Below are positions 24,337 to 39,517 of a DNA stretch of 39,517 nucleotides, in pieces. The notes below the pieces were generated by a model. The model did no database searches and was not told the origin of the DNA. It saw only the letters and a list, made by a program, of their open reading frames with translations. The DNA comes from Dehalococcoidia bacterium (GTDB taxonomy: Bacteria; Chloroflexota; Dehalococcoidia; Lucifugimonadales; Australimonadaceae): the NCBI GenBank assembly GCA_022449765.1, contig JAKUPZ010000005.1, forward strand, positions 66,285 to 105,801, in the 5' to 3' direction. The number at the start of each line of letters is the position of its first letter. Position 1 is the stretch's first letter. A program made the position numbers and the translations under genes.

Positions 24337-26385
24337 TTACAGACCTAATAATTCCTGCAACTGACTAGGGTCATTTGTAGGCAACTCGCACGTAAAATTA
24401 TTACATAGGTAAGCCATTGGAGCATCTGCATTAGCTCTATCTTCTGATAATGGGGATTGGAAAATTTGATTTTCATCAGGGTTAATTCCATATAATGTCA
24501 GAAATGGCAAAAATTTACTGCTTACCACTTGAATCAATTCTTGGGTGTTCAGGTCTTCAGGCCTTCCAACGATTACTAGTTCCGTAGATTTCGCCATATA
24601 CAATTCTAATATTTTCAACCAATTTCCAAATCCCAAGGGATACCTTGAAATCAAGGGGATTACCTCTTGTAATATCGCTTCTAATTTTTGAAAATACTCC
24701 GTCGAATTAGTAATTTTATACATCCGCAATAACGCTTCAGCTGCAGATGAACTGCCAGAAGGAATAGCATTATCAAATACGGTATACGGTCGAGTAATTA
24801 ACTGTTCGTGATCAACACCAACGTCATAAAATCGATTAGACTCATCATCCCAAAATAATTCAATCATTTCATCCGTTAAGCGCTCAGCTGTAGCAATCCA
24901 TTCAGAGGAAAATGTCGAAGCATGCAGCGATAGCAAAGCATTAATTAAGAATGCATAGTCCTCCAAGTATCCAAGTAAATGTGCTTCCCCATTTTTCCAT
25001 GTCCGTAACAATCGATTATTTATGTACAGGTTCTCTAATAGAAATTTCGCATTATTTTCTGCAGATTCAATATAATCTTTGCGCCCTAAAGATAAGCCCG
25101 CTTCTGCAAAAACACGAAGTATCAAAGCATTCCAAGAAGTGAGCACTTTATCGTCAGTTGCAGGAGGTATCCGTTTCGTCCTTTGATTTAATAATTTTTG
25201 ATTTGAATCTCTCAATATCCTCCTAAGATTTTCTATTTCCAAATTCAATACGTTTGAAGAGGATGCAATGCTTCCTTGAATATTTAATATATTCGCCCCT
25301 TCAAAATTCCCATTTTGTGTCACTCCATAATGATAGGCATACACATCTGCATCATCACCTAGTATTAATTGAATTTCACTTAGGGTCCAAACGTAATATT
25401 TCCCTTCAACACCCTCGCTGTCAGCGTCCTGAGAAGAAAAGTACCCTCCTTGGTCATGCCTAAGATTGCGGTTTATGTAATCAAGAATCTCTTGTACAAG
25501 AATGCTGTACTGAGGGTCCCCAGATAATGTGAAAAACTGTGCACATAATGAAGCTAGCAGCGCATTGTCATACAACATTTTTTCAAAATGTGGGATCAGC
25601 CATTGATCATCAGTTGCGTAACGAGAAAAACCTCCGCCAAGTTGGTCGTAAATTCCCCCTTTAGCCATTTTGCTCAAAGTTACCTCTACCATCTCTTTTG
25701 CCCGTTGATCACCTGTGCGGAAGTAATATCTCAATAAAAATTCCTGAGGCATCGACTGAGGAAATTTGGGCGCATTACCAAAACCACCATTCTCATGGTC
25801 AAAAACAGATAAAAGAGTTTGGAACGCATTATCCGTAATAGTACTGTTTATAGACTCTTGAGGATGTTCTTTGGAGACATGGGCAATTAAAGCGTTTGTG
25901 AGCACATTGGCATTCTCTTCAACCATGTTCCTTTGGGTTTTATATGCCTCCGAAACAGCGTCGATAACTTTAGGCCACGAAGGCATACCTCTAAAATCAG
26001 AAGGTGGGAAGTAGGTCCCACCGTAAAATGGTCTGCCGTCAGGCAGTAAAAAAACGTTAAGTGGCCATCCACCATGTCCATGCATTTGCTGCACTGCGTT
26101 CATATATATACTGTCTATATCTGGTCTTTCTTCACGATCAACCTTTATGCAAACTAATAACTCGTTCATTTTGCTTGCAATTTCCACGTTCTCAAATGAT
26201 TCTCTCTCCATCACGTGGCACCAGTGACAGGCGGAATACCCTATAGAGACAAGTACAGGCTTATCTTCTTCATATGCCTTTAGAAAAGCTTCTTCACCCC
26301 ACGGAAACCATTCGACAGGGTTATGTGCGTGCTGTAGTAAGTATGGAGATGTTTCGTGTATTAACCGATTTGAAAATTCAGGCAT
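24337..26385 (-). CDS. YyaL/SSP411-type thioredoxin-domain protein (DUF255)
   Basis: The protein has 682 residues, full length for the family. The N-terminal DUF255 thioredoxin-like domain opens with [19 protein letters not shown] and has a CxxC redox motif in SACHWCHVM (Cys53, Cys56). [20 protein letters not shown] follows. The C-terminal part is an (alpha/alpha)6 barrel like N-acylglucosamine 2-epimerases/glycosidases, with [18 protein letters not shown] and [13 protein letters not shown]. The role is unproven, possibly a redox-linked carbohydrate or cell-wall enzyme. It starts 6 nt after the agmatinase stop, so it is probably co-transcribed with the polyamine genes, a link not explained by the family. 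Confidence 0.9.
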
Positions 26386-29820: not shown

Positions 29821-30660
29821 ATGGGTAACATACATAACAACATAATTTATGCAGTACTTGTACTTCTCCTAGTCATGATTGCTACTGGATGCAACGATAA
29901 TGGCTCCAGTAACAGCGTACCAATGGAACCCTCGACAAGTAATACCTCTGAGCAGATCAATAGTATTTCTCGAACCACTACTGATGGCCAAGGGCTTATT
30001 TCTTCTTCTAATATTAATCATGACGTAGGAATACATGTGACTGGCGCAGGAGTGATTACAGTAGAGCCTGATATCGCAGTTTTGTCCGTCTCAATTGAAA
30101 CTACGAATAAATCGCTGTCAATTTCCTCAATTAAAAATGCGAAATCTACCGAGCTGGTTTTGAAGGTATTGAAGGCCAACGATGTCAATGAAGAAGATAT
30201 TAAAACACAGCGATATTCCACACAGCCGGTATACAAATACACACAAGAAGAAGGTCAGAAACTACAGGGTTACAAGGTAACTAACTCGTTACAAATTACC
30301 TTGCGGACAATCAGCAACAATATAGGCCCCATCATTGATGAATTAGTCAGTTCTGCAGGAAACGATATTAGAATCAATCAAATCAATTTCCGGAAAGAAG
30401 ACACTAGCAGTGCTCTACGCCAAGCCAGAATCCTAGCAGCCCAAAATGCAATTGAGATAGCAGAATTGTACGCCTTAGAAATGGGAGTAACGAGAGGGAA
30501 ATTACTTTACGTAGTAGACCAGAATTCCTCGCGATATCCTGAAAAGGATTCATTTGCAATGGCTGAAGCTGGACTAACTGCGCGATCTACTCCAACCACA
30601 ATCATTCCAGGTGGCTATGACATCACTGCTACCATACGTGTGGTTTTTGCAATCAATTAA
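29821..30660 (+). CDS. SIMPL-domain (DUF541) lipoprotein
   Basis: The protein has 279 residues. A lipoprotein signal peptide has a lipobox ending ATGC (Cys24), then a Ser/Asn-rich linker of about 50 residues precedes a SIMPL/DUF541 domain. Domain markers are GAGVITVEPDIAVLSVSIET, EEDIKTQRYSTQPVYKY, YKVTNSLQITLR and the C-terminal GGYDITATIRVVFAI. The family includes BP26/OMP28 and YggE-type envelope proteins that form ring oligomers; the function is poorly defined (oxidative or envelope stress in some). Here it is a membrane-anchored surface protein. It ends 5 nt before the stop of the convergent selenocysteine-rhodanese gene. Confidence 0.87.
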   Translation: MGNIHNNIIYAVLVLLLVMIATGCNDNGSSNSVPMEPSTSNTSEQINSISRTTTDGQGLISSSNINHDVGIHVTGAGVITVEPDIAVLSVSIETTNKSLSISSIKNAKSTELVLKVLKANDVNEEDIKTQRYSTQPVYKYTQEEGQKLQGYKVTNSLQITLRTISNNIGPIIDELVSSAGNDIRINQINFRKEDTSSALRQARILAAQNAIEIAELYALEMGVTRGKLLYVVDQNSSRYPEKDSFAMAEAGLTARSTPTTIIPGGYDITATIRVVFAIN

Positions 30661-30665
30661 AGCAT

Positions 30666-31484
30666 TCACTCTAGGGGAGTGTCGTCTCGGTTAGCCCATT
30701 CTCCCATTGAGCCATCATACATACATACGTCAGAGTAACCCAATAACGCCAGTACAAAAGCAGCGTGCGCCGCACGCACCCCACCCTGTCAGTAAATATG
30801 AATCCGTTTTTCTGAACTTATACCTACGCTAATTAATAAAGATTCCAAATCCTTTGTAGATTTAAAAGTTTGATCTTCATTAACAAGATTGGTCCATTCC
30901 AGGTGCACAGCACCGGGAATGTGGCCAACACGATTATTCCCTCTTGAATTAGCTCCGCTATATTCATCATCCGATCGAACATCCCAGATGAGGGAATCAT
31001 CGTTCCCTATCGCTAATTTTAATTTTTCTACATCGGATTGAATTGCTTGATTTACATAATCGGTAGTAAATAAAGAGCTTTTGTATGGAAATGGTGGACC
31101 CGACTCTATAGGCAAATTCAAAGAAGACCACTCACTCCAGCCACCATCAAGGATTTTTACATTTGAATGGCCATAGTAGTTCAAAACCCACCACAGTCGT
31201 GCAGCATCCCTACTCGAAAATCGATCATAAGCTATCACCAATGTGTCATCACCAATTCCTATTGACTCGAACCATTCTTTTGCTTCAGTAGGAGGCGCGA
31301 CTAGTCGCTTATTTTCACTTCCTTTTATCTGCCATGATGGAGATAGAACTGCGCCAGGTATGTGACCTTCAAGAAATTGTTCTTGGTCTTGGGCCATTTC
31401 AACAATCCTAATTCCATCTTCGCTAAGATGACCTGCAAGCCAATTTGCACTTACCAATAACTGATCTCTTGGACTTGCTGCCAT
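30666..31484 (-). CDS. Two-domain thiosulfate/3-mercaptopyruvate sulfurtransferase (rhodanese), candidate selenoprotein with in-frame UGA
   Basis: Translation from the ATG at 31484 (strong AGGAGGT box) gives an inactive N-terminal rhodanese domain (QFLEGHIPGAV) and a C-terminal catalytic domain (WDVRSDDEYSG, GHIPGAVHLEW). An in-frame TGA at 30791-30789 falls exactly where the catalytic Cys of the Y-C-Q-G-G loop belongs (HIY-U-QGGVRAAHA). The frame then continues for 40 conserved codons (FVLALLGYSDV, YDGSMGEWANRDDTP) to a real TGA at 30668-30666. Reading UGA as selenocysteine gives 272 residues, the normal length. A SECIS-like hairpin lies just after the UGA. The enzyme would transfer sulfur or selenium through a selenenyl intermediate. 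The alternatives are a nonsense mutation or a base-call error. selA, selB, selC and selD are not in the window. Confidence 0.82.
30757..30782 (-). other. Candidate bacterial SECIS element
   Basis: On the transcript, GCGUGC, a GGC loop and GCACGC form a perfect 6-bp hairpin (30777-30763). The loop begins 17 nt after the UGA and starts with GG. Below a bulged U, additional G-C and G-U pairs extend the stem to about 30782 and 30757. Spacing, small apical loop and G in the first two loop positions match the known bacterial SECIS pattern. SelB binding is inferred. Confidence 0.7.
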
Positions 31485-38140: not shown

Positions 38141-38189
38141 AGAATGGATAGGTCCATCTGGAATTAACTCAGATGGACCTATCCATTCT
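38141..38189. terminator. Perfect 20-bp hairpin between convergent genes
   Basis: Positions 38141-38160 and 38170-38189 are exact inverted repeats with a 9-nt loop. The hairpin lies between the Gfo/Idh/MocA stop and mutS, and its right arm covers the mutS stop codon and last codons. The U-tract is poor on both sides (TTGCTT and TTATTATTC), so termination strength is uncertain. Confidence 0.65.
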
Positions 38190-39517
38190 TTGCTTCGCTT
38201 ATAATTTGCGCAAGCTTGTCCAATGCCTGCCTTGGGGTAATATCGTCTAGATCAATTTCTTTTATTGATTCAAAAAGCTTTTCTATTTCGGGTGGATAAT
38301 CTACGTGGAAATTAAATTGACCTTGCGCAGGGCCACCAGGTAAATTTTTACTTTTTACAGTTTTTGATCTTCCATTCAATGTTTCATGTTCTTGTAATAG
38401 CTCTTTTGCTCTTTCAATTACTGAGAATGGTAATCCCGCTAGCTGCGCTACTTGTACACCATAACTTTTGTCTGTACCTCCGCTAACAATCCTATGGAAG
38501 AAAGCAATTCTACCATTACTTTCCGATACCAATATGCTTAAATTGGTAACTCTCGGTAATCGTTCTGCCAGAGTGGTTAATTCATGATAATGAGTTGCGA
38601 ACAATGTGCGGCAGCCTAAAGATGCTTCATTATGAATATGCTCTGCAACAGCCTGAGCAATTGAAAGCCCATCAAATGTAGAAGTGCCTCTTCCAAGCTC
38701 ATCCAAAATAAGCAACGACCTTTTAGTTGCATGGTTAAGTATTGACGCTGTTTCCACCATTTCAATCATAAAAGTTGATTGCCCTGAAGTTAGGTCATCC
38801 TGCAATCCTACACGGGTGAAAATCCTATCTACTAAACCCACGTGAGCTTGTTCTGCAGGTACAAATGAGCCTATTTGTGCCATCAATACGACAAGGGCTA
38901 CTTGGCGTAAATAAGTAGATTTACCTGCCATGTTAGGCCCCGTAAGTATTACGAGCTGTGAAGCTTCTGTAGACATGATTGTATCGTTAGATACAAAAGT
39001 CCCTGGGGGCAAAAATCTTTCGACGACAGGGTGTCTAGCACTTACCAGATTGAGATTCTCATCGTTCGATAAGGAAGGCCGTACATAACCGTAACGAGAC
39101 GCGGCTTCACCAAGAGAAAGTAATGCGTCAATTCGAGCTATAGCTAATGCAGCGCCAAGTATTCGAGTCGAAAATGATAAAACTTGAGAGCAAACATTCT
39201 TGTAAATTTGAGTCTCTAATTCTTGAAGCTTCTCGCTCGCGTTAAGAACTTTATTCTCATACTGCTTCAACTCTTCAGTGAAAAATCGCTCAGCATTTAC
39301 TAAAGTCTGTTTTCTTATGTAATCATCAGGAACATTATTCAAATGAGAATTGGATACTTCGAAAAAATAACCGAAAACTCTGTTATACCCAATCTTTAAA
39401 TTTCCAATTCCAGTACGAGATTTTTCTTGCTGCTCTAATGCCGATATGTATTTACGAGCGTCACGTGTTGCTGAAATTAAATCATCAATCTCTGAAAAAT
39501 AACCTTCCCGGATTATT
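38179..39517 (-). CDS. mutS: DNA mismatch repair protein MutS (5' part beyond the window)
   Basis: The frame is open to the right edge; about 445 C-terminal residues are visible. The clamp/lever region includes RTGIGNLKIGYNRVFGYFFE. The ATPase domain has Walker A GPNMAGKSTYLRQ, FTRVGLQDDLTSGQSTFMIE and Walker B LILDELGRGTSTFDG, followed by LFATHYHELTTLAERL. SYGVQVAQLAGLPFSVIERA is the helix-turn-helix dimer segment. It recognises mismatches and recruits MutL. The C-terminus ends in DITPRQALDKLAQII, the usual P-x-x-A-L-x-x-L tail motif. The stop codon lies inside the hairpin at 38141-38189. An internal ATG at 39342 is not the true start. Confidence 0.97.
   Translation of the reverse strand, partial: IIREGYFSEIDDLISATRDARKYISALEQQEKSRTGIGNLKIGYNRVFGYFFEVSNSHLNNVPDDYIRKQTLVNAERFFTEELKQYENKVLNASEKLQELETQIYKNVCSQVLSFSTRILGAALAIARIDALLSLGEAASRYGYVRPSLSNDENLNLVSARHPVVERFLPPGTFVSNDTIMSTEASQLVILTGPNMAGKSTYLRQVALVVLMAQIGSFVPAEQAHVGLVDRIFTRVGLQDDLTSGQSTFMIEMVETASILNHATKRSLLILDELGRGTSTFDGLSIAQAVAEHIHNEASLGCRTLFATHYHELTTLAERLPRVTNLSILVSESNGRIAFFHRIVSGGTDKSYGVQVAQLAGLPFSVIERAKELLQEHETLNGRSKTVKSKNLPGGPAQGQFNFHVDYPPEIEKLFESIKEIDLDDITPRQALDKLAQIISEAKNG

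Follow-up and report, generated by a model that had tools for sequence, protein, structure and literature searches.

On the minus strand of the window, by which we mean the whole 39,517-nt stretch of DNA analysed here, lies a gene for a tandem rhodanese of the thiosulfate/3-mercaptopyruvate sulfurtransferase superfamily (30666–31484) whose full length is obtained by reading through an in-frame UGA. Its ATG start codon (31484–31482) stands 4 nt downstream of the ribosome-binding site AGGAGG (31494–31489, same strand), and direct reading of the sequence thus bears out the strong site described in the initial annotation. Under the standard code the ORF runs from 31484 to 30789 and ends at the UGA at 30791–30789, which gives exactly the 231-residue truncated protein that automatic annotation had been expected to call. 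Read-through yields 272 residues with a single internal UGA, at codon 232 in the peptide context IY-U-QGGVRAAHA, and a final UGA stop at 30668–30666. As previously described, and as read directly, that stop lies 5 nt from the end (30660) of a convergent ORF, which encodes a SIMPL/DUF541 (oxidative stress defence-like) protein (29821–30660). A bacterial SECIS-type hairpin (30763–30777, minus strand), with a 6-bp stem GCGUGC/GCACGC and an apical loop GGC at 30771–30769, follows the internal UGA. No other UGA in the window combines a long gene upstream, a gene-free extension of at least 25 codons and such a hairpin, and a scan of the window for further selenoprotein genes found none besides the rhodanese.

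Fold and active site

Two rhodanese domains (PF00581 twice, COG2897 type) were recognised in the 272-residue product. An AlphaFold2 model, with residue 232 modelled as Cys, had a pLDDT of 95.6 and a pTM of 0.93 and superimposed on thiosulfate sulfurtransferases with a TM score of about 0.9. Position 232 falls in the cradle loop of the C-terminal domain, between a strand (227–231) and a helix (236–247); rhodanese nucleophiles sit in the loop between such a strand and helix. The N-terminal domain, in which Cys is absent, probably has no catalytic activity.

The closest structural comparisons were M. tuberculosis CysA2/CysA3 (3hwi, 3aax) and the T. thermophilus rhodanese (1uar), which share the two-domain fold (TM about 0.9) at 30–33% identity. 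In 1uar and 3hwi the active-loop Cys falls in the column of residue 232, and an Arg five residues later is common to both sides of the comparison; these enzymes differ in using Cys and in having a CRIGERS-type loop. SseA (1urh; NF008557) belongs to the same superfamily and aligns over its full length but differs in the active loop, and the protein scored 135 bits against the cut-off of 250 for NF008557, the 3-mercaptopyruvate sulfurtransferase equivalog. Its own loop, UQGGVR, is unlike both the classical TST signature (CRKGVT) and the classical MST signature (CGSGVT). Two families with Sec in some members, the rhodanese-related (seleno)protein NF041203 and TsoB (NF045694), also contain rhodanese domains but have other architectures, and the protein fell far below their cut-offs (42 of 115 and 25 of 805 bits, respectively). 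None of the NCBIfam models scored over its cut-off against this protein. Elsewhere in the window, the TsoB selenoprotein model gives a weak match of 24.6 bits, through its C-terminal part, to a 682-residue protein (24337–26385).

Sec/Cys exchange and constraint on the RNA

Among 107 homologous loci readable at the column of codon 232, 73 carry UGA and 34 carry Cys, some of them representing the same genome counted from two collections; in three further loci the alignment stops short of the column (two) or is misaligned there (one). Because Sec and Cys occupy exactly this column, the earlier proposal that the UGA replaces the catalytic Cys is upheld. About 40 residues past the UGA are conserved in the homologues, again in agreement with the initial reading that the family's C-terminus continues in frame. 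Once duplicates had been removed, a tree built from 60 Sec rows and 34 Cys rows required at least five changes of state, of which well-supported branches force three; Sec and Cys have thus been exchanged a few times, with no distinction between gain and loss in this tree. The Sec rows come from SAR202 and other Chloroflexota and also from MAGs labelled Binatia and Deltaproteobacteria; these last two group together in a single cluster, with good support, within the Chloroflexota part of the tree. Within the family to which the host belongs, every genome examined has the UGA form except one, which is 60% complete and gave no match. The nearest public relative is a SAR202 genome with 75% identity over the protein.

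The same UGA is found in dozens of independent genomes, four assembled chromosomes among them, always together with a hairpin that the Cys versions lack. Both observations make it extremely improbable that a sequencing or assembly error turned TGC or TGT into TGA.

The hairpin, GCGUGC-GGC-GCACGC, was found as initially described: it begins 12 nt past the UGA, spans nt 12–26 and has 6 bp, of which five are GC. The 34 nt after the UGA fold with an MFE of -16.5 kcal/mol (z -2.2 versus shuffles), and just 0.4% of synonymous recodings drawn from the codon usage of the window form a stem of 6 bp or more at this site. When longer segments were folded, however, the MFE structure differed from the hairpin, and a 70-nt isolated region was no better than shuffles. 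Folding alone is therefore weak evidence, and the case for a SECIS is carried by comparison among homologues.

That comparison was clear-cut. All 51 distinct Sec sequences have a stem with 5 or more bp around a loop, GGC or GTC, at nt 18–20 after the UGA, whereas it is absent from all 34 Cys sequences (Fisher p 1.6e-24). The strongest control held the protein constant and compared codon spelling: among genes that encode the same peptide, QGG[I/V]RAAH, RAAH is spelled CGTGCGGCGCAC in 39/39 Sec genes and in 0/16 Cys genes. Since the peptide is equal and the spelling is fixed only in the Sec genes, the RNA itself must be constrained. These counts are uncorrected for relatedness, which is a minor concern given their exactness across distant rows. 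Paired changes were also seen in the stem: G-C to U-A in two loci (L045 and L109), through a joint replacement of Ala by Ser and His by Asn, and, at an outer position in nine sequences, C-G to G-C. Altogether, the hairpin after UGA232 has the features of a bacterial SECIS, including a G in the small apical loop. A search of the host genome for exact copies of this element returned only the rhodanese gene itself, and near-matches with two mismatches were as numerous as in the reversed control.

These data also bear on whether the UGA could be a true stop that leaves a 231-residue truncated rhodanese or a pseudogene remnant. Such a reading agrees exactly with the ORF produced by an automatic gene caller, but the truncated form would be without its nucleophile, the protein past the UGA is conserved across the Sec rows, and the codons there are fixed as RNA in all 39 genes of the constant-peptide set. 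We regard it as very improbable.

Selenocysteine machinery of the host and its relatives

The host is a marine, SAR202-like member of the Chloroflexota with a genome of 1.61 Mb in 35 contigs, 96.8% complete. All four genes whose search the initial annotation had recommended are present: selA (537.3 bits), a full-length selB (350.9 bits, over the cut-off), selD (372.6 bits) and selC, the tRNA-Sec with anticodon UCA. The host selD (locus L009, G000:C3:77799–78722) itself has an in-frame UGA, in the context CAG-U-AGK, and downstream of it a hairpin of 8 bp capped by a GGA loop; the genome thus has at least two Sec genes. A second match to SelB, on contig C13, looks like EF-Tu and adjoins tRNA-Thr/Tyr/Thr genes; we rejected it. 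The tRNA-Sec gene lies directly downstream of a gene for a thioredoxin-like protein (L012:1097–1598).

We compared the host and 38 relatives for co-occurrence of the UGA form with selA. Of these 39 genomes, 28 have the UGA form and 26 of the 28 have selA; the two without a selA match are 90% and 81% complete. The four assembled chromosomes with the Sec form all have selA, while Tepidiforma flava, whose genome is complete, carries the Cys form and lacks selA.

A different recoding, in which UGA is read as an amino acid such as Trp or Cys, genome-wide or otherwise, would likewise leave the codon open in frame, and Cys is indeed the alternative residue at this column. Against it stand the complete Sec machinery, the second Sec gene (selD) and the bacterial SECIS features of the hairpin. 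Furthermore, neighbouring genes stop at UGA normally: 4 of the 24 large ORFs in the window end in this codon, consistent with the earlier view that a code change is unlikely. We consider it highly unlikely here.

Since sequencing error, a pseudogene, a true stop and a code change are all effectively excluded, we conclude with a probability of about 0.93 that this is a genuine selenoprotein gene, in which insertion of Sec by SelB and Sec-tRNA at UGA232 would produce a full-length two-domain rhodanese with a proposed role in sulfur transfer. The selenoprotein case is built from sequence: the UGA, the conserved protein past it, the constraint on the RNA and the complete machinery. SelB carrying Sec-tRNA(UCA) would bind the hairpin 12–26 nt past UGA232, whereupon selenocysteine would be inserted.

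Proposed function, neighbourhood and context

Cys rhodaneses transfer sulfur through a persulfide, and by analogy we infer both the sulfur-transfer role of the Sec enzyme and its possible substrates. A donor, for instance thiosulfate or 3-mercaptopyruvate, would give up a sulfane sulfur to the selenolate of Sec232; from the resulting Enz-Se-S- the sulfur could then move on to an acceptor, either a thiol or cyanide.

The genomic neighbourhood of the gene and its relatives points to sulfur chemistry, without naming a substrate. In 17 Sec loci outside the subclade of the window, the next gene downstream, in the same orientation, is arylsulfotransferase-like (PF05935/PF14269; for example L062:3890–5026, L063:3817–5007 and L069:3826–4896), with a gap of 4–65 nt in four examples; this arrangement suggests an operon and an organosulfur role. 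In the close relatives of the window the neighbour that recurs steadily is the SIMPL/DUF541 gene, which adjoins the Sec sulfurtransferase gene in eight neighbourhood entries (the window counted, and one genome counted twice).

An alternative within the selenoprotein reading is that the main task of the enzyme is not sulfur transfer but redox chemistry, or the binding and delivery of reduced selenium, in a perselenide-type form, to SelD. Rhodanese and 3-mercaptopyruvate sulfurtransferase do bind selenium and are debated as delivery proteins (PMC8538045); the lineage uses Sec, and the tRNA-Sec gene adjoins that of the thioredoxin-like protein. However, in Tepidiforma, which lacks selA, the active loop of the Cys homologues is unchanged, which argues that the task does not need Sec biosynthesis. 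Many relatives have the arylsulfotransferase-like neighbour, and no sel gene was seen beside the Sec rhodanese gene in their neighbourhoods. We therefore think selenium delivery or redox unlikely as the main task and prefer sulfur transfer.

Sec-containing rhodanese-related sulfurtransferases have already been predicted from ocean metagenomes, as the initial annotation noted: three Sargasso Sea sequences in 2005 (COG2897; PMC1088965) and eight GOS sequences in 2008 (cd01449; PMC2398784), and a 2026 review lists ‘Rhodanese-like form 2 / form 4, UxxG’ (PMC13188914). AACY01016424, MCY3690685.1 and MBM9537886.1 are published sequences of this kind. As described there, these proteins share with ours the rhodanese type, the UxxG motif (here UQGG) and a bacterial SECIS just after the UGA. 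To judge by the descriptions, the gene fits this published UxxG kind and is thus another, very firmly supported case of it. The Sargasso Sea and GOS predictions are metagenomic and, in the passages that describe them, name no host lineage, whereas for the present gene we know the host genome, the sel genes in it and dozens of relatives. Our literature search for SAR202 or Chloroflexota together with selenoprotein and rhodanese found no paper describing a Sec rhodanese family in that group.

Beyond the host lineage and the many members, our analysis adds a test at the level of the RNA and an example of a genome where no tandem rhodanese but the Sec form turned up. Rhodanese-domain matches in the host number three, namely both domains of the Sec gene and one single-domain protein, and a whole-genome search for other tandem rhodaneses, including a Cys backup, found none, so that sulfur transfer in this organism may depend on selenium. 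The natural Sec/Cys pairs offer a testable set for a kind of selenoprotein that had until now been represented by metagenomic predictions. Wherever the Sec form occurs, annotation software that takes UGA for a stop will cut the gene short. More speculatively, and we hold this to be doubtful, SAR202/Dehalococcoidia-type bacteria might share a sulfur route across the lineage, coupled in many members to the arylsulfotransferase-like enzyme, with the Sec form as its regular and perhaps sole tandem sulfurtransferase. If so, selenium would be a requirement for organosulfur turnover in ocean bacteria of this type.

Separately, near the end of the window, a MutS ORF (38179–39342) matches only the C-terminal part of its profile (from position 468–476); the N-terminal part probably lies beyond the edge of the window and contig, 175 bases away.
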